Below the pieces are notes generated by a model. The model searched no databases. It saw only the letters and a program-made list of their open reading frames with translations, and was not told the origin of the DNA. Made by a program: the position numbers and the translations under genes. From Anaerolineales bacterium (GTDB taxonomy: Bacteria > Chloroflexota > Anaerolineae > Anaerolineales > Villigracilaceae): a DNA stretch of 44,116 nt. The DNA lies in NCBI GenBank assembly GCA_014860805.1, contig JACZJB010000029.1:1-44116 (forward strand). The letters run 5' to 3'. This document shows, piece by piece, positions 6,274 through 14,962 of this stretch (positions are counted from its first letter, which is position 1; every line of letters starts with the position of its first letter).

Positions 6274-6362
6274 GTTTGACCTCCAAAAAGGCGGATTCTT
6301 TACTATTTTCAAGCACAAAGTCAATTATCTTTAACGAGATATTGAAAATATTAAATTGATAC

Positions 6363-6390
6363 TTGACAAAATTGAAAAAATGTCTATAAT
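6363..6390 (+). promoter_or_regulatory. Strong housekeeping promoter of the DUF2089/DUF4097 operon
   Basis: TTGACA (6363-6368) and TATAAT (6385-6390) with a 16-base spacer, in an AT-rich stretch, both perfect consensus hexamers. Transcription would start about 70 bases before the first gene at 6470. Confidence 0.9.
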
Positions 6391-6469
6391 TTTATTAGAA
6401 ACGTAGAGAAAATATTGATTTTTTGGATTTGGTGATTGTTTTCCTTTTGTTTACTAATGGAGAAGTACC

Positions 6470-6706
6470 ATGAACAATTTTCAGACCGATGATTTGCTTA
6501 ATATGGCCAAAGAGAAAAATCAGGAAGACGTTGATTCTCAATTATTCCTGAAAGCCACGCAACTTAATGGGACGCGCTGGCTGGCTGCTCTTGGCGCCTG
6601 GATGGTCGCAAAAGGCGAAAAAATACAGGCTCGTTATACTACATCTTTGCGGCCAAACCGGCTGGGACTTCCATTAAATAAGATCAAAAAAGCCAGAGCC
6701 CATTAA
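6470..6706 (+). CDS. Small hypothetical protein, first gene of the operon
   Basis: The 78-residue protein is not recognised. It has an acidic N-terminal half, a short amphipathic or weakly hydrophobic stretch (LNGTRWLAALGAWMVAKGE, about residues 32-51) and a basic, Pro-containing C-terminus. GGAGAAG lies 6 bases before the ATG, and a consensus promoter lies upstream, which supports real expression. It precedes the DUF2089 gene by 51 bases. Confidence 0.65.
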   Translation: MNNFQTDDLLNMAKEKNQEDVDSQLFLKATQLNGTRWLAALGAWMVAKGEKIQARYTTSLRPNRLGLPLNKIKKARAH

Positions 6707-6757
6707 TCATACAAAATATAACTCACAAAGTCGTCATCTCATAGGAGAAATAAAGCC

Positions 6758-7138
6758 ATGCGACCAGCGCCTACCATCTGCCCGATCTGCCAATCTGAAT
6801 TGGAAGTTGCCCGATTACACTGCAACTCGTGCGATACATCCATTGAGGGTCATTTCGCAATGGGGCAGTTCTCAAATTTAACCCCCGAGCAAATGGAATT
6901 CATATTCACCTTTGTACGCTGTGAAGGCAAGATCAACCGCATGGAGCAGGAACTCGATTTATCCTACCCGACCATTCGCAATCGACTGCACGAGGTAATC
7001 CGCGCCCTGGGGTATGAACCCGGCAAGGACGAATCTGTTGAGATCAACGCTGAAATCAGAAGCAGTGCCATTGCCGACCTTGAGGCTGGCAAGATCACTG
7101 CGGATCAAGCCATGCGCATTCTGCGCGGTGAGGAGTAA
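6758..7138 (+). CDS. DUF2089 family protein, probable transcriptional regulator
   Basis: The 126-residue protein starts with a zinc ribbon, CPIC at residues 8-11 and CNSC at 22-25, then the DUF2089 helical domain (LTPEQMEFIFTFVRCEGKIN, LSYPTIRNRLHEVIRALGY) that looks like a sigma-4/HTH unit. The last 30 residues (SAIADLEAGKITADQAMRIL) form a short SHOCT-like helical hairpin also found in three downstream proteins. The family sits beside DUF4097 and SHOCT genes in many Gram-positive-like genomes and is thought to regulate them. The next ATG follows after 3 bases. Confidence 0.85.
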   Translation: MRPAPTICPICQSELEVARLHCNSCDTSIEGHFAMGQFSNLTPEQMEFIFTFVRCEGKINRMEQELDLSYPTIRNRLHEVIRALGYEPGKDESVEINAEIRSSAIADLEAGKITADQAMRILRGEE

Positions 7139-7141
7139 ACC

Positions 7142-8245
7142 ATGTCTAAAACCATTTCTGCAGGTCATACACCAAAGATCATGATTGAGTCCATCGGCGG
7201 CGATCTCAGCCTTGTCGGTTGGGAAGGGGATGAGATCCTCTTCAAAGCCGACGAAGAGGAAATGCACACAAGTCAGGATGGCGACCAGGTCAATGTTTCT
7301 TGCGGTGACGATCTTTCCCTGCGTGTCCCAAAATCTTCCTCCATATTTATTGGAAGTATTGGCGGAGACGCTTCCATTCGCAGTTTGGTCGGAGATATTG
7401 AATTAAAAGAAATTGGCGGGGATCTTTCCATGCGCGACGTGAATTCCGTTTCCATAGACACGGTTCGTGCGGACTTTAGCCTGCGCGGCGCGAAAGGAAA
7501 TTTGTTCATCAAAAACGCCAACAGCGATGTATCCATCCGCGATGTGGACGGGCATGTAACCTTGGAAACCGTTGCTGACGACCTGGCACTGCGCGATGTG
7601 CGCGGCAATGTCAACGCGAAGGTGGCTGAGGATATCGTCATGTATTTGAACCCGCAGGCTGGTAACACATATTCTGTTACGGCAGGCGATGACATTTTGC
7701 TGGTGATGCCCCCGAAGGCGAATGCAACGTTGACCCTCAATGCCGATGAGATCGATATTGACTGGAAAGGTATTGAAAATGATGAAGAAGCCACCAGCCG
7801 CGTTGTCACACTGGGCGACGGCTCCGCAACAATTAATTTAAGCGCAGGCGGAGATATCCGTGTAAGCAATCAAGCGGACGCTGGGGAATCGGCTGAAGAC
7901 TTTGGCAACTTTGCAGGCATGGGCATGGACTGGTCTGGTTTTGGCGAACGCATCTCACGCCGTGTGGAGGCTGCGACTCAACGTGCCCAGCGTAAAGTGG
8001 AGGAGGCCGCCCGCCGCATTGAGCACAAGGCACGTGATGCAGAACGGCGTGCTAGCGGCCGCGGCAGAGGCTTTTTGGAAGTTGGCCGATGGAACTGGGA
8101 TTTTGCTCCCCGGGGCGTGCCGATGTCTCCCAAATCTCAAGCCTCCGATGAAGAACGACTTGCCATCTTGAAGATGCTTCAGGAAAAGAAGATCACTGCC
8201 GAAGAAGCAGATAAATTATTAGCCGCGTTGGAAGGAGGCTCTTAA
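7142..8245 (+). CDS. DUF4097 beta-helix protein with C-terminal SHOCT-like domain
   Basis: The 367-residue protein is built of repeated short beta segments (IESIGGDLSLVGWEG, IGSIGGDASIRSLVGDIELK, IGGDLSMRDVNSVSIDTV), as in DUF4097 adhesin-like beta-helices, over about residues 10-245. An Arg/Ala/Glu-rich helical part follows (about 260-305) and the C-terminus is a SHOCT-like hairpin (EERLAILKMLQEKKITAEEA). No signal peptide is visible. Firmicute relatives with this combination, such as LiaX/YvlB-type proteins, act in cell-envelope stress defence; a like role here is inference. The stop shares its last A with the next ATG. Confidence 0.85.
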   Translation: MSKTISAGHTPKIMIESIGGDLSLVGWEGDEILFKADEEEMHTSQDGDQVNVSCGDDLSLRVPKSSSIFIGSIGGDASIRSLVGDIELKEIGGDLSMRDVNSVSIDTVRADFSLRGAKGNLFIKNANSDVSIRDVDGHVTLETVADDLALRDVRGNVNAKVAEDIVMYLNPQAGNTYSVTAGDDILLVMPPKANATLTLNADEIDIDWKGIENDEEATSRVVTLGDGSATINLSAGGDIRVSNQADAGESAEDFGNFAGMGMDWSGFGERISRRVEAATQRAQRKVEEAARRIEHKARDAERRASGRGRGFLEVGRWNWDFAPRGVPMSPKSQASDEERLAILKMLQEKKITAEEADKLLAALEGGS

Positions 8246-8871
8246 TGTCATCCGAAGAGCGCAAGAAGATTTTACAAATGGTGGCAGATGGAAAGATCAG
8301 TGCGGATGAAGCCGCCACGTTAATGCGCGCATTGGACGACTCTGCCGAAGAGGAGATCGAAATCGTTGGCGAGGCATCAGGAATGGGCGGGGAAAGAAGC
8401 GATGGGCCGGAGTTCGATCAAGTTCGCAGGCGTGCCAATCGCTTTTCTAGCGCATTCCTTTGGATCGGAGTCATCTTCACTGTTTTGAGTGCATGGGCGA
8501 TGTTTGGCATTCAACAAAATGCAGGCACCAACTTTTGGTTTTATTGCATGAGCATGCCGCTCTTCCTTGGAATTTTATTTACAGCGATGGGCGCAGGCAG
8601 CAGGACTTCCCGCTGGATGTATGTGAACGTGGATCGCACCCGCTCGAAGGATTCAGACGGGCCCCGCAATATTACAATTGCGCTTCCGCTCCCGCTCGGG
8701 CTTGCCAGCTGGTTTCTGAGAAATTTCGGCAGCCGAATCGATAAGCTGAAAAATACGAACGTGGACGAAATCATACAGGCGATTGCAATGGCAAAGAATA
8801 TGACCGAGCCGTTGATCGTGCATGTGGATGATGCGGATGATGGTGAAAGAGTGCAGGTCTTTATAGGATAA
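8245..8871 (+). CDS. SHOCT-like membrane protein
   Basis: The 208-residue protein starts with the SHOCT-like hairpin (SSEERKKILQMVADGKISAD). Two membrane helices follow at about 70-90 (SSAFLWIGVIFTVLSAWAMF) and 100-118 (FYCMSMPLFLGILFTAMGAG). The soluble C-terminal domain (WMYVNVDRTR, ITIALPLPLGL, NVDEIIQAI, DDGERVQVFIG) resembles the body of the protein at 10201-10587, so the two are paralogs and this one has a membrane insertion. Its ATG overlaps the preceding TAA, which implies translational coupling. Confidence 0.75.
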   Translation: MSSEERKKILQMVADGKISADEAATLMRALDDSAEEEIEIVGEASGMGGERSDGPEFDQVRRRANRFSSAFLWIGVIFTVLSAWAMFGIQQNAGTNFWFYCMSMPLFLGILFTAMGAGSRTSRWMYVNVDRTRSKDSDGPRNITIALPLPLGLASWFLRNFGSRIDKLKNTNVDEIIQAIAMAKNMTEPLIVHVDDADDGERVQVFIG

Positions 8872-8874
8872 AAA

Positions 8875-10143
8875 ATGGAAACGATTAAAAAGAAACCTTT
8901 ATTAAGTGGATTGCTGATCCTGTTCTTAACGGCAATGGTCTTTGCCAACATCGGCGGGAGCATGTATGGCTCGCTGATGCCGCTTTATCTTAAAGACCTG
9001 GATGCTTCGATCACGCAGATCGGGCTGTTCTTTACGCTTTCACAGATCGTGCCTTTGCTGCTGCAAATTTTAGGCGGATGGGTTTCCGATACGCTGGGGC
9101 GCCTGCGCGCGATTGCGATTGGCAGCGTATTCGGAGTGATCGGCTTCATCCCCCTTGTCCTGGCGGATACCTGGCAGTGGCTTTTGCTGGCAGTGGCGAT
9201 TGGCGCTGTCGCCCGTTCGCTGGTTGGACCGAGTTTCGACGCCTTCATTGCGGAACACTCCAGCGAAGAGAATCGCGGCAAGGTCTTTGGTATTTCGCAG
9301 GCAATCTTCATGATCGTCTCCGTGCTGGGACCTCCGCTGGGCGGGTGGATGGCTGGCGCGTATGGTTTTAAGATCATGTTATTGGCGGCGGGTATTTTCT
9401 ACTTTATCGCGATGATCATGCGCTTGAGCATGGCGCGCGAGGCTGCAAAAACCGCCACTGCAAAGACAGAGAAACTTTCGTTCAGCAGCTTGAAGACCAA
9501 TCTGGTTTCGATGTTTGGGCTGGTCTTTTCAGGCGGACTCATCACCTGGATGCTGGTGACGGATGGAATGCGTGATATTTCCTTCCAGTTTTCAGAAAAC
9601 CTTTTCCCTGTTTATATGCAGGAGATCGGTGGACTTTCCCTTCAACAGATTGGCTGGGTCATGTCATTCTTTGGTATGGCGATGATGGCAACCACCATCC
9701 CCGTCGGCTGGCTTTCAGACAAAGCTGGGGAGCGGGTGGGGATTGCGCTCGGAATGGTGTTGATGTCCAGCGCGTTGTTTGTTCTGGTCAATATCCCTGC
9801 CGGCAACCAGTGGATGTATTACCTCGGATGGGGATTGGCTGGCATGGGCGCGGGCGTTTCGGCTCCTGCGTACCAATCATTGATCAGCAAGGCAGTACCC
9901 CAGAAAAATCGCGGTATGGCGTTTGGTTTATTCAGTACCAGTTTGGGAATTTTCTCCCTGCCCGCCCCATGGATCGGCGCGCAGATGTGGGACCGTGTCG
10001 GCCCAACGTTTCCTTTTACTGTAACTGCGGTCGTTTTATTGTTATCTGTGATTCCGATTTGGATCAAGTTCAAACTCCCCAAGGATGGGGTAAAAGTAAC
10101 GGAAGAATCAGCGGATGAGAATTTATCCGTTGTGACAGGCTAA
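8875..10143 (+). CDS. MFS transporter
   Basis: The 422-residue protein has about 12 hydrophobic helices and the MFS loop motifs, GGWVSDTLGRLRAI after helix 2 and VGWLSDKAGERVG in the second half. The end is hydrophilic. Substrate cannot be told; drug or metabolite efflux is common for such proteins. It starts 3 bases after the preceding stop, with a weak AGGA in front, inside the SHOCT operon, so it may be induced together with it. Confidence 0.88.
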   Translation: METIKKKPLLSGLLILFLTAMVFANIGGSMYGSLMPLYLKDLDASITQIGLFFTLSQIVPLLLQILGGWVSDTLGRLRAIAIGSVFGVIGFIPLVLADTWQWLLLAVAIGAVARSLVGPSFDAFIAEHSSEENRGKVFGISQAIFMIVSVLGPPLGGWMAGAYGFKIMLLAAGIFYFIAMIMRLSMAREAAKTATAKTEKLSFSSLKTNLVSMFGLVFSGGLITWMLVTDGMRDISFQFSENLFPVYMQEIGGLSLQQIGWVMSFFGMAMMATTIPVGWLSDKAGERVGIALGMVLMSSALFVLVNIPAGNQWMYYLGWGLAGMGAGVSAPAYQSLISKAVPQKNRGMAFGLFSTSLGIFSLPAPWIGAQMWDRVGPTFPFTVTAVVLLLSVIPIWIKFKLPKDGVKVTEESADENLSVVTG

Positions 10144-10200
10144 AATAAATGGATTCCGGATTTGGAGTTGGACTCCGAATGAACGGTAAAGGAGATAAAC

Positions 10201-10587
10201 ATGGCAAACAGCGAAGAAAGAATGAAGATCCTGAAGTTGATCGAAGAGGGAAAGATCAGCGCGGATGAAGGTTCAAAACTGCTTGCGGCGTTAAGCGATA
10301 CGCGCCGTGGCATTCCCACACCTCCACGCCCGCCTGGGGTGGGCGGTGGAGCGCGCTGGCTGCGCGTCCGTGTAACGGATGTCCGCACAGGTCGCTCGAA
10401 GGCTTCCGTACAAATTCCGCTTGCGCTTGTGGATGCGGGCATGAAGATCGGCGCCCATTTTGCCCCCGAAGTACAAGGCGTGGACATGAGCAACGTGATG
10501 GAAGCCCTGCGTGCAGGCGTGACAGGCAAGATCATCGATGTTGTTGACGAGGAAGACGGCGAACACGTTGAGATATTTGTTGAATAA
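10201..10587 (+). CDS. SHOCT-like protein, soluble paralog
   Basis: This 128-residue protein begins NSEERMKILKLIEEGKISAD, the fourth SHOCT-like hairpin of the cluster, then a Pro/Gly linker and a domain (WLRVRVTDVRTGRSKASVQI, SNVMEALRAG, EEDGEHVEIFVE) matching the C-terminal domain of the 8245 protein. GGAG lies 9 bases upstream of the ATG. No membrane segment is present. It is probably the last gene of the operon. Confidence 0.75.
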   Translation: MANSEERMKILKLIEEGKISADEGSKLLAALSDTRRGIPTPPRPPGVGGGARWLRVRVTDVRTGRSKASVQIPLALVDAGMKIGAHFAPEVQGVDMSNVMEALRAGVTGKIIDVVDEEDGEHVEIFVE

Positions 10588-10739: not shown

Positions 10740-12095
10740 ATGGAAGAAACATCCACTAAACGCCCCAGCGGCATGTTCGGCTTTACCATTGTCTGGATCG
10801 GTCAGATCGTGTCCGTGCTTGCCAGCGCAATGAGTCAGTTTGGCCTCACTATTTTCATGTTCCAAAAAACGGAAAGCGCCACCGCGCTTGGGTTGATGCA
10901 GGTATTCTTCATCACTCCGTTTCTGATCATTTCACCGATTGCCGGCGTAATGGTCGACCGTCACAACCGAAAGATGATGATGATGGTCAGTGACCTCGGT
11001 GCAGGCATTGCCACCGTTGTGATTCTCATCTTCCAATCTTTGGGGATTCTGGAATTCTGGCATTTGTATTTTGCGTCCATCATTTATGGTCTTGGCATGG
11101 CCTTTCAATGGCCTGCCTATTCTGCCGCCATCACCACCATGGTTCCAAAAGAACAATATGGGCGCGCCAATGGCATGATGTCCCTGATTGAAGCGGGACC
11201 GGGCGTTGTTGCCCCATTACTCGCCGGCGCATTACTTCCCATTATTGGTTTGACCGGTATCCTGATTTTCGATGTTGTCACCTTTTTGTTCGCCATCGGC
11301 GCCTTGCTGGTCGTGTATATTCCGCAGCCTCCGCGCACAGAGGAAGGTGCAAAAGGACAGGGCAGTGTTTGGAAGGAAGCCGCTTATGGCTTTCAATATA
11401 TCTTTTCCCGTCCGAGTTTGCTTGGTTTGCAGCTGATCTTTTTTGCCGGCAACCTTTTTGCCGGCATCGGTTTTACCCTGCTTGCCCCGATGGTTCTCTC
11501 GCGGACTGCAAATGACAGCCTCATGCTTGGTTCAGTGCAAACGGCGGGCGCGGTCGGAGGGTTGATCGGCGGGATTATCATGAGCGCCTGGGGGGGCTTC
11601 AAACGCCGCGTGCATGGCGTTTTGGCGGGTTGGGCAATTTCCGGGCTTGGCATGGCAATTTTCGGCTTGGTCGGAGGCTTGCCCATCTGGATCACAGGCA
11701 TCATTATTACGGCTCTCGTCGGACCTTTGGTCAATGCATCCAATCAAGCTATCTGGCAGGCAAAAGTTGCGCCAGATGTGCAAGGACGCGTCTTTTCTGC
11801 CCGCCGCCTGATTGCCTGGTTTACCAACCCCATCTCCCCGATCATTGCAGGCACCCTGGCAGATTTTGTGCTTGAACCGCAAATGCGCGTGGCTGACAGT
11901 TCGCTCGCTCAAACATTTGGCTGGCTGTCTGGTACCGGTCCCGGTGCAGGGATGAGTTTGATTATTTTCTTCTGCGGCTCGCTGAGCATTTTGGTTGGGC
12001 TGGCTGGATATTTCATCCCCGCCATTCACAATGCAGAGACTATTCTTCCCGACCACGATCAACTTCCAAAAGCGGATGCTGTTCCTGCGGATTAA
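10740..12095 (+). CDS. MFS transporter (enterobactin-exporter-like branch)
   Basis: The 451-residue protein has about 12 membrane helices, with FTIVWIGQIVSVLASAMSQF in helix 1 and GVMVDRHNRKMMMMVSD as the loop 2-3 MFS motif. The layout is that of the MFS_3 efflux branch (EntS-like; macrolide efflux is another possibility). The C-terminus is Pro/Asp-rich. A 152-base gap and a weak AAGGA SD separate it from the SHOCT operon; an own promoter is possible but not clear. A strong terminator follows. Confidence 0.88.
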   Translation: MEETSTKRPSGMFGFTIVWIGQIVSVLASAMSQFGLTIFMFQKTESATALGLMQVFFITPFLIISPIAGVMVDRHNRKMMMMVSDLGAGIATVVILIFQSLGILEFWHLYFASIIYGLGMAFQWPAYSAAITTMVPKEQYGRANGMMSLIEAGPGVVAPLLAGALLPIIGLTGILIFDVVTFLFAIGALLVVYIPQPPRTEEGAKGQGSVWKEAAYGFQYIFSRPSLLGLQLIFFAGNLFAGIGFTLLAPMVLSRTANDSLMLGSVQTAGAVGGLIGGIIMSAWGGFKRRVHGVLAGWAISGLGMAIFGLVGGLPIWITGIIITALVGPLVNASNQAIWQAKVAPDVQGRVFSARRLIAWFTNPISPIIAGTLADFVLEPQMRVADSSLAQTFGWLSGTGPGAGMSLIIFFCGSLSILVGLAGYFIPAIHNAETILPDHDQLPKADAVPAD

Positions 12096-13750: not shown

Positions 13751-14962
13751 CTACAACCCGGCAGCCTTTTTCAAAGCGGCGGCCTTGTCAGTGCGTTCCC
13801 AGGGGAATTCGATGTCATCGCGGCCGAAATGACCGTAGGCGGCGGTCTTGCGATAGATCGGGCGACGCAGGTCAAGGTCGCGGATGATCGCGCCGGGGCG
13901 CAGGTCAAAGTGCTCGTTGACGAGTGCAGAAATCTTTTCATCGGCGATCTTGGCAGTGCCGAAAGTCTCCACATTAACGGAGAGCGGATGAGCCACACCG
14001 ATTGCGTACGCTACTTGCACTTCCACGCGGTCAGCCAGGCCTGCGGCGACAATGTTCTTGGCAACATAGCGTGCAGCATACGCGGCGGAACGGTCCACTT
14101 TCGTGGGGTCTTTCCCGGAGAAAGCGCCGCCGCCGTGACGACCCATGCCGCCGTATGTATCCACGATGATCTTGCGGCCCGTTACGCCTGCATCACCCAT
14201 GGGACCGCCGATAACGAAGCGGCCGGTGGGATTGACGAAAACTTTCAGGTTTTTATCAACCAATCCCTCTGGCAGCGTTGGGTAAATAATATGCTCGCTG
14301 ACAAGCTCCATGATCTCGGCTTGCGAAATCTCAGGTGCATGCTGGGTGGAGATAAGGACAGTATCAATGCGCTTGGGCCTGCCCTGTGAATATTCCACAG
14401 TTACCTGACTCTTGCCATCGGGACGCAGCCAGGGGAGGGTGCCGTCTTTGCGAAGTTCGCTCAAACGGCGGGATAATTTGTGTGCCATGTAAATGGGCAT
14501 TGGCATCAGGGTGGGAGTTTCATTGCATGCAAAACCGAACATCATACCCTGGTCGCCCGCGCCGACATGTTCGATGCCGGTGTCTTTCATTTCGCCGCTT
14601 TTGTCTTCGAGCGCATGGTCTACACCCAGGGCAATATCCGCACTTTGGCTGGCGACTGCGGAAAGAACGGCACAGGTGTTTCCGTCAAAGCCTTTGTCGC
14701 TGCTGTCGTAGCCAATTTCATTTACTACCTTGCGGACGAGCTCATCAAAATTGACATATGCATTGGTGGTAATTTCACCAAGCAATGCCACGAAACCGGT
14801 CTTCACTGCAGTTTCACAAGCAACGCGGGACATTGGATCCTGCTCGAGGCAGGCGTCGAGAACTGCATCGGAAACCTGGTCGCAGATCTTATCGGGGTGG
14901 CCTTCTGTCACCGATTCTGATGTGAACATCAGGCTGGGTGAAGTCATAAAAGTATTGCTCAT
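13751..14962 (-). CDS. metK: S-adenosylmethionine synthase
   Basis: MetK makes SAM from methionine and ATP. The 403-residue protein has [20 protein letters not shown] near the start, the signature [19 protein letters not shown]-like [20 protein letters not shown], and the end [15 protein letters not shown]. All three MetK domains are complete. The AAGGAG SD is 14 bases before the ATG, just behind the riboswitch terminator. The SAM-I riboswitch upstream gives product feedback. Confidence 0.97.

Follow-up and report, generated by a model that had tools for sequence, protein, structure and literature searches.

Why should four proteins encoded by one bacterial operon carry the same short two-helix hairpin? 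The operon lies in a stretch of 44,116 nucleotides (nt) from an Anaerolineales bacterium of the phylum Chloroflexota (contig JACZJB010000029.1), which we call the window. According to the list of open reading frames (ORFs) it comprises six genes, all on the forward strand, for a 78-residue orphan, a DUF2089 regulator, a beta-helix protein, a 208-residue membrane protein, an exporter of the major facilitator superfamily (MFS) and a 128-residue soluble protein. From the DUF2089 gene onward they are spaced by 3 nt, a 1-nt overlap, 3 nt and 57 nt (Table 1). An earlier note, made from the DNA letters, had pointed out the hairpin and suggested that the four proteins might assemble through it. Proteins of the DUF2089, SHOCT-like and Toastrack kinds are widespread yet functionally dark, and to our knowledge little is known about the envelope-stress biology of Chloroflexota. 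The answer that we favour, with a rough probability of 0.4, is that the operon would be a PspA-free Chloroflexota membrane-stress module without a two-component system of its own, in which the hairpin acts as an adaptor and the DUF2089 protein controls the promoter and the MFS pumps. Hairpin pairing, membrane anchoring and autoregulation are each open to separate testing in such a compact system.

The hairpin and its four types

The hairpin is an existing Pfam family, PF22746 (SHOCT-like_DUF2089-C), whose curated cut-off of 27 bits is met by the beta-helix, the 208-residue and the 128-residue proteins (scores in Table 1). Since the tail of the DUF2089 protein stays under this cut-off (16.6 bits), we built a profile from the three other hairpin types, leaving all DUF2089 tails out. 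This held-out profile gives 21.8 bits for the DUF2089 tail of the window, and 110 of 111 DUF2089 tails, some of them from duplicate loci, score higher than any of 2,220 shuffled ones, which reach 8.9 bits at most. Full independence cannot be claimed for the test, as the seed used to collect the training hairpins contained the window's DUF2089 tail. Thus the earlier note was right that the same hairpin occurs in four proteins, C-terminal in the first two and N-terminal in the last two. In the AlphaFold2 models it consists of two helices, at residues 2-16 and 21-33 of the 128-residue and 3-14 and 20-33 of the 208-residue protein. Among the Pfam matches of seven window proteins at E <= 1 we did not find PF09851, which we take to be the accession of SHOCT proper.

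A regular expression derived from the four copies finds exactly four sites in the six frames of the window, namely the four hairpins. Across a sample of 121 loci (40 from the same genus and order, the best 80 of at least 339 relatives in GTDB genomes, and the window) it matches 268 of 19,121 ORFs, every one of which is also matched by an operon profile; since these profiles include that of the hairpin, the count stands for agreement and is no proof that hairpins are absent elsewhere. The genome to which the window belongs (274 contigs, 4.23 Mb, 96.8% complete) has three matches to PF22746 at E <= 0.001, and each of them falls in this operon.

We compared 292 hairpins from 73 loci, each of which stands for a different hairpin set. 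The window's name does not occur in this list, presumably because it was merged into an identical set. For 285 of these hairpins the nearest neighbour is of the same type, where D denotes the DUF2089 tail, T the hairpin of the beta-helix protein, TM that of the 208-residue and S that of the 128-residue protein. Identity averages 0.60 among D, 0.71 among T, 0.60 among TM and 0.84 among S hairpins, compared with 0.36-0.58 for hairpins of different type from different loci. By this comparison the four hairpins are distinct, old types and not one repeated tag. When identities within loci were set against those across loci, T-TM alone was clearly above permutations (3 of 1000; D-T, 67 of 1000), an excess that can be explained by relatedness. 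Two positions differ between the types in a set of 75 loci: position 9 is acidic in type D in 70 of them and mostly Met or Leu in the other types, and position 8 is mostly Glu, Ala or Asp in D, and mostly Lys or Arg in T and S. Such residue differences would fit a heterotypic pairing of hairpins, of which they give only a hint. Tandem double hairpins occur in X proteins of two other loci (in the membrane X protein of L065, and in L149 at 6305), which offer natural cases of hairpins that could pack on each other.

Table 1. Positions of the operon's features and its downstream exporter in the window.
Feature	Position	Strand	Basis
Candidate operator zone with two dyads	6321..6354	.	Palindromy in aligned relatives; suggestive
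Near-ideal sigma-70 promoter, TTGACA-16-TATAAT	6363..6390	+	12/12 consensus positions
78-residue orphan ORF, first gene after the promoter	6470..6706	+	
DUF2089 regulator: zinc ribbon, helix-turn-helix, C-terminal SHOCT-like hairpin	6758..7138	+	PF22747, PF09862
Hairpin type D (DUF2089 tail)	7052..7135	+	Held-out profile, regular expression
Divergent Toastrack-like beta-helix protein, C-terminal hairpin	7142..8245	+	PF22746, 34.8 bits
Hairpin type T (beta-helix protein)	8150..8239	+	PF22746
208-residue membrane protein: hairpin, two transmembrane helices, domain X	8245..8871	+	PF22746, 42.2 bits; AlphaFold2
Hairpin type TM (208-residue protein)	8254..8343	+	PF22746
MFS exporter 1, optional member	8875..10143	+	MFS_1, 191.4 bits
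128-residue soluble protein: hairpin and domain X	10201..10587	+	PF22746, 42.3 bits; AlphaFold2
Hairpin type S (128-residue protein)	10213..10302	+	PF22746
MFS exporter 2, 152 nt downstream	10740..12095	+	MFS_1, 110.8 bits

Conservation of the set and its tie to DUF2089

Within the genus and order, PF22746 is present in 37 of 41 genomes, the window's own included. The 80 loci from GTDB genomes in our sample are presumably from Chloroflexota, judging by their titles and taxonomy, apart from two titled only 'uncultured bacterium'. Two further sets of relatives were used, one made up of the window and 45 of 48 listed relatives, the other of the window and 39 of 60. After removal of 11 loci without DUF2089 and 13 duplicates, 97 distinct loci were left. 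All four hairpin proteins are found in 75 of them, in the order DUF2089, Toastrack-like, membrane X and small X protein in 74 of the 75, and in none of the 97 does any of the four members lie on the opposite strand.

Since the 97 loci had been found via the hairpin or domain X, we made an even draw of genomes by DUF2089. A DUF2089 match was present in 129 of 201 genomes (200 from Chloroflexota and the window's own), and 40 of these 129, from 38 families and with one genome per family except for three in the window's family, were scanned whole. They contain 91 PF22746 matches at E <= 0.001, some of which are under the curated cut-off. Of these matches, 20 belong to the tails of DUF2089 proteins themselves; another 60 are in separate genes at most 5 kb away, on the strand of DUF2089, and the remaining 11 are at other places. 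In other words, 60 of the 71 hairpins outside DUF2089 are same-strand neighbours of a DUF2089 gene, where chance would give fewer than one, because by our estimate only some 0.5 Mb of about 150 Mb lies within 5 kb of DUF2089. The assignment of tails is based on distance: of 33 matches within 260 nt of the helix-turn-helix, 20 at 19-52 nt belong to DUF2089 itself, and 13 at 120-229 nt were counted as neighbours because the lengths of the open frames differ from that of DUF2089 in each case; those loci among the 13 that were fetched have separate ORFs for the hairpin and DUF2089. A neighbour hairpin is thus present in 36 of 40 genomes (32 listed, and G073, G128, G174 and G206 from the short-distance bin); in G124, G141, G157 and G230 this distance measure finds none. 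The partners usually seen in these families are X proteins, whose hairpin is N-terminal, and Toastrack-like proteins, in which it is mostly C-terminal and in a few cases N-terminal. PF22746 and DUF2089 were also both matched in the Thermus, Deinobacterium and Thermotoga genomes that served as controls. As judged from gene neighbourhoods, the DUF2089 regulator and the hairpin are linked.

A second DUF2089-hairpin system is found in five loci, of which four (L036, L040, L045 and L050) are from the window's genus and the fifth (L062) from its order. Here the DUF2089 gene is followed by a gene whose product has an N-terminal hairpin (34.2 bits with PF22746 in L036, 35.1 bits in L062), carries repeats of about 26 residues that look helical, and has no Toastrack match. 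As this cargo differs from that of the window, the hairpin is the element common to both kinds of DUF2089 partner. A AAAATATTTTG-like dyad was seen in several promoter regions of this second system.

The exporters are less constant. Calling MFS proteins among the recognised genes by phmmer at E <= 1e-20 to three MFS queries, we see one anywhere in 61 of the 97 loci and none in 36. Counted over the recognised genes, it separates the two X proteins in 28 of the 75 complete loci, and in the full 97 it is the nearest gene before DUF2089 in 16 and the nearest after the small X protein in 38. Given this partial presence at several positions, the MFS pumps are frequent but replaceable parts. The second exporter of the window resembles models for H+ antiporters and Mef proteins, in each case below the cut-off (TIGR00900, 198.9 bits against 319.6). 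The set of regulator, sensor-like beta-helix, membrane part and exporter proposed in the earlier note is therefore borne out by conserved order, strand and linkage in its hairpin-bearing members and loosened in its exporter, which is optional; from these comparisons, regulator, beta-helix platform, membrane part and exporter as a functional set are well supported.

These numbers also bear on the thought that we are looking at a plain co-transcribed efflux operon, whose hairpins would be leftovers of duplication or fusion without a joint function. The two MFS genes would fit it, as would the T and TM hairpins, which adjoin across a gene boundary (8150-8343) as they would after a duplication. 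Yet the four types are kept apart over loci of the order, and the DUF2089 linkage of 60 out of 71 hairpins holds over many families, which argues for selection; moreover, MFS genes are missing in 36 of 97 loci, yet the hairpin genes are complete in 75 of them all. We consider such leftovers very improbable.

Several features at the edges of the operon may be added. The DUF2089 protein passes the cut-offs of both of its families (PF22747, 52.0 bits against 27.6; PF09862, 75.7 against 33.4). The 78-residue ORF is present in 11 of the first 41 loci, the window counted, and has no Pfam or NCBIfam family at E <= 1 and no PADLOC family at E <= 0.1; in some loci another MFS gene parts it from DUF2089. 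Further downstream, on the reverse strand, there is a SAM riboswitch (RF00162, 15038-15145, 81 bits) 5' of an ORF (13751-14962) that by eye resembles S-adenosylmethionine synthetase, an ordinary arrangement.

Membrane partners, control region and the proposed switch

The beta-helix protein had been labelled DUF4097 in the earlier note. For the window protein itself we found no match to this family (PF13349) at E <= 1, and one ortholog, in L149, barely passes the cut-off (23.1 against 22.9 bits). Among eight Toastrack-like relatives only one more passes, L146 with 59.7 bits, and this scorer is the second Toastrack-like protein of its operon. L091 (19.8 bits), L068 (17.6) and L125 (13.5) stay below, and L057, L059 and L110 have no match at E <= 1. 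The alignment of 29 sequences, window counted, has a mean column identity of 33%, and by eye the window protein has neither a transmembrane (TM) helix nor a signal peptide. A second Toastrack-like protein occurs in L118, L119, L120, L121, L133, L135 and L146, before or after the X proteins and mostly with a hairpin (not in L133).

The 208- and 128-residue proteins had been said to share their main domain, one of them with a membrane hairpin, and the AlphaFold2 models agree: both contain a domain, here called X, with the order beta-beta-alpha-alpha-beta-beta. The model of the 208-residue protein (mean predicted local distance difference test score, pLDDT, 82) has, after the two hairpin helices, further helices at 55-93 and 97-119 and X at 124-207; in that of the 128-residue protein (mean pLDDT 77) the hairpin is followed by X and a short extra helix. 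Among the matches listed for X members (19 and 16), the only Pfam matches besides PF22746 are weak, the best with E 0.0016 in the TM proteins. We were not able to find an NCBIfam match above a cut-off for the two window X proteins, a PDB sequence relative of X beyond chance, or a Foldseek match of the X proteins at E <= 0.001 (with X as modelled within the whole proteins). VIA-align over X gave Z values of at most 4.0. Two matches of X to de novo TIM barrels were rejected, as they rest on repeated matches of about 7 bits. The 128-residue protein has no relatives among 72,556 plasmid records at E <= 0.01 and is 98% identical to a protein in the Anaerolineales record JAEURE010000031.1.

In relatives of the membrane X protein, the mean number of Arg and Lys is 3.57 before the first TM helix, 0.30 in the loop and 2.43 after the second, counted in the 63 of 67 proteins with two TM peaks (the four without two clear peaks were excluded). 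Because of the positive flanks and the nearly uncharged loop, both ends of the 208-residue protein are probably cytoplasmic, so that the hairpin and X would, in this modelled N-in/C-in topology, probably face the cytoplasm. This consistent charge pattern in a partner with two TM helices, together with the frequent MFS companions, speaks against a role of the hairpin in handling nucleic acids or RNA polymerase, in which all four proteins would be co-regulators of the DUF2089 helix-turn-helix and membrane stress would be irrelevant. We regard this as highly unlikely, even though DUF2089 does have a helix-turn-helix and nucleic-acid binding is among the hypotheses raised for SHOCT in the accessible part of Eberhardt et al. 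2013 (PMC3581485).

What could the DUF2089 protein act on? The operon starts with a perfect TTGACA-N16-TATAAT, and we searched for TTGACN-N16-18-TANNNT within 300 nt upstream of DUF2089. The pattern is present in 62 of 80 loci without the 78-residue ORF, compared with a mean of 1.3 and a maximum of 4 in 30 shuffles. All five second-system loci have it, and without them the count is 57 of 75. Upstream of the 78-residue ORF it occurs in 24 of 25 rows, three duplicate pairs counted, the other row having no upstream sequence; phylum-wide it precedes 20 of 37 DUF2089 genes. With the centre fixed, two dyads stand out in 51 aligned regions. They are centred some 15 nt and 36 nt 5' of the -35 box, 21 nt apart, and have palindromies of 0.52 and 0.49 against an average of 0.32, where column composition predicts 0.46 and 0.41 (sd 0.024). 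A free dyad search upstream gave 5.68, slightly above 20 shuffles (mean 5.26, highest 5.50); downstream its value of 4.71 was not above them (mean 4.63, highest 5.03). Centres in the -10 region also exceed the column expectation, for example 0.444 against 0.329 at +25. The top centre, at +3, is only the aligned -35 box itself (0.556, with 0.563 expected from the columns). The dyads at -15 and -36 are suggestive candidates for DUF2089 operators.

Taken as a mechanism, the module could work as follows. The hairpin would be the adaptor that assembles the four proteins on the inner face of the membrane, with the 208-residue protein as the anchor, whose hairpin and X lie in the cytoplasm, and the beta-helix protein as the platform; the small soluble X protein would compete with the membrane X protein. 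DUF2089 would be held through hairpin pairing until a disturbance of the membrane releases or reshapes it, and in this state it would alter transcription from the strong promoter at 6363, so that operon and MFS pumps go up. Of this picture, the architecture, the linkage and the conservation of the promoter are established by the comparisons, and the topology by prediction and charge; hairpin pairing, DNA target, signal and direction of regulation are the parts that we infer. A more elaborate version seems distinctly unlikely as a whole: a one-component membrane-stress switch of type-specific two-helix clips, in which the terminal hairpin of a zinc-ribbon helix-turn-helix regulator tethers it to a beta-helix platform and to an anchor with two TM helices, the anchor's soluble twin competes, efflux is controlled without kinase or PspA, and the DUF2089 hairpin logic is reused with helical-repeat cargo in a second locus.

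Several points weigh against a membrane-stress module held together by hairpins. Coevolution between the hairpins is weak once the shared divergence of the four cores is removed (partial r at most 0.167): T-S has p 0.010 and D-S p 0.020, the other four pairs range from 0.15 to 0.88, all uncorrected for six tests, and the D-T pair is without signal (p 0.88). According to the part of the study that we draw on, one SHOCT domain failed to oligomerise its carrier protein (PMC3581485). The 97 loci were gathered in a way that favours complete ones, and 22 of them are nevertheless incomplete, in part through contig ends. An UP element would occupy the site of the dyads and is a plain rival for the A+T-richness there. 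Finally, membrane stress as the signal would be an argument by analogy.

Potentially, the hairpins could anchor each protein singly, either to the inner leaflet or through one outside partner for all, so that the proteins meet at the membrane with no mutual pairing. Besides the weak coevolution and the negative SHOCT result, this would match Ravi et al. 2024, who, in the portion of the paper accessible to us, predict membrane anchoring for SHOCT-like domains and not mutual pairing (PMC11237479). Still, the 208-residue protein keeps its hairpin despite having TM helices of its own, which a pure anchor would not need, and hairpins mostly adjoin DUF2089 and stay apart in their types. We therefore think of separate anchoring as somewhat unlikely, and stay with the hairpin as an adaptor. 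A defence system was considered as well and rejected, as the PADLOC matches of six proteins at E <= 0.1 are marginal, among them those of the second-system repeat protein of L036 (E 0.0007 and 0.0019) and of residues 6-80 of DUF2089 (E 0.0024).

Comparison with known systems

The name SHOCT-like points to SHOCT, which, as far as the part of Eberhardt et al. 2013 at hand goes, is like our hairpin a short two-helix domain at protein ends with many cargoes (PMC3581485); PF22746 is a family separate from it. With the PSP system (PspA/PspC) the window shares the presumed role in envelope stress. No match to PF04012 (PspA) at E <= 0.001 was found in the 96.8% complete genome, and no two-component or PspC Pfam family among seven proteins of the operon region. 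Two small PspC ORFs (L223 and L224) are present on other contigs of this genome despite the lack of a PspA match.

The earlier note named Firmicute LiaX-like systems as a precedent for parts only, and the likeness is loose even so: the LiaX model NF038025 gives 8.7 bits against a cut-off of 350. LiaX and YvlB, from enterococci and B. subtilis, do combine, like the window protein, a helical part and a Toastrack beta-helix in one protein, in an operon with membrane proteins, and are linked to peptide antibiotics or envelope stress in the accessible parts of two papers (PMC10269926, PMC12791056). The helical part of LiaX is N-terminal and LiaX works with LiaFSR, whereas the hairpin of the window's beta-helix protein is C-terminal. 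In the enterocin DD14 locus, too, a DUF2089 family protein is listed, with an ABC exporter and membrane proteins as neighbours (PMC7332713, Table 4).

A close relative is the four-gene DUF2089-Toastrack context of Ravi et al. 2024, for which, in the text accessible, lia-like signalling is predicted (PMC11237479). As in the window, DUF2089 consists there of a zinc ribbon, a helix-turn-helix and a SHOCT-like domain, stands beside Toastrack genes and is filed without PspA. The companions differ, with LiaI-LiaF-TM, B-box or PspC in that context and two X proteins, four hairpins and MFS pumps in the window. The exact operon may be contained in the supplementary tables of that paper. In the open-access literature on DUF2089, SHOCT-like and Toastrack, seen in part and exclusive of subscription papers, we found neither the X proteins nor this operon described. 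Because the DUF2089-Toastrack context has been published, the operon is to be seen as a variant of a kind already described. Compared with the accessible part of that literature, what appears to be new is the four-hairpin set, the conserved promoter with its candidate dyads, the second DUF2089-hairpin system and domain X, a conserved domain that the set defines and for which we found no Pfam family.

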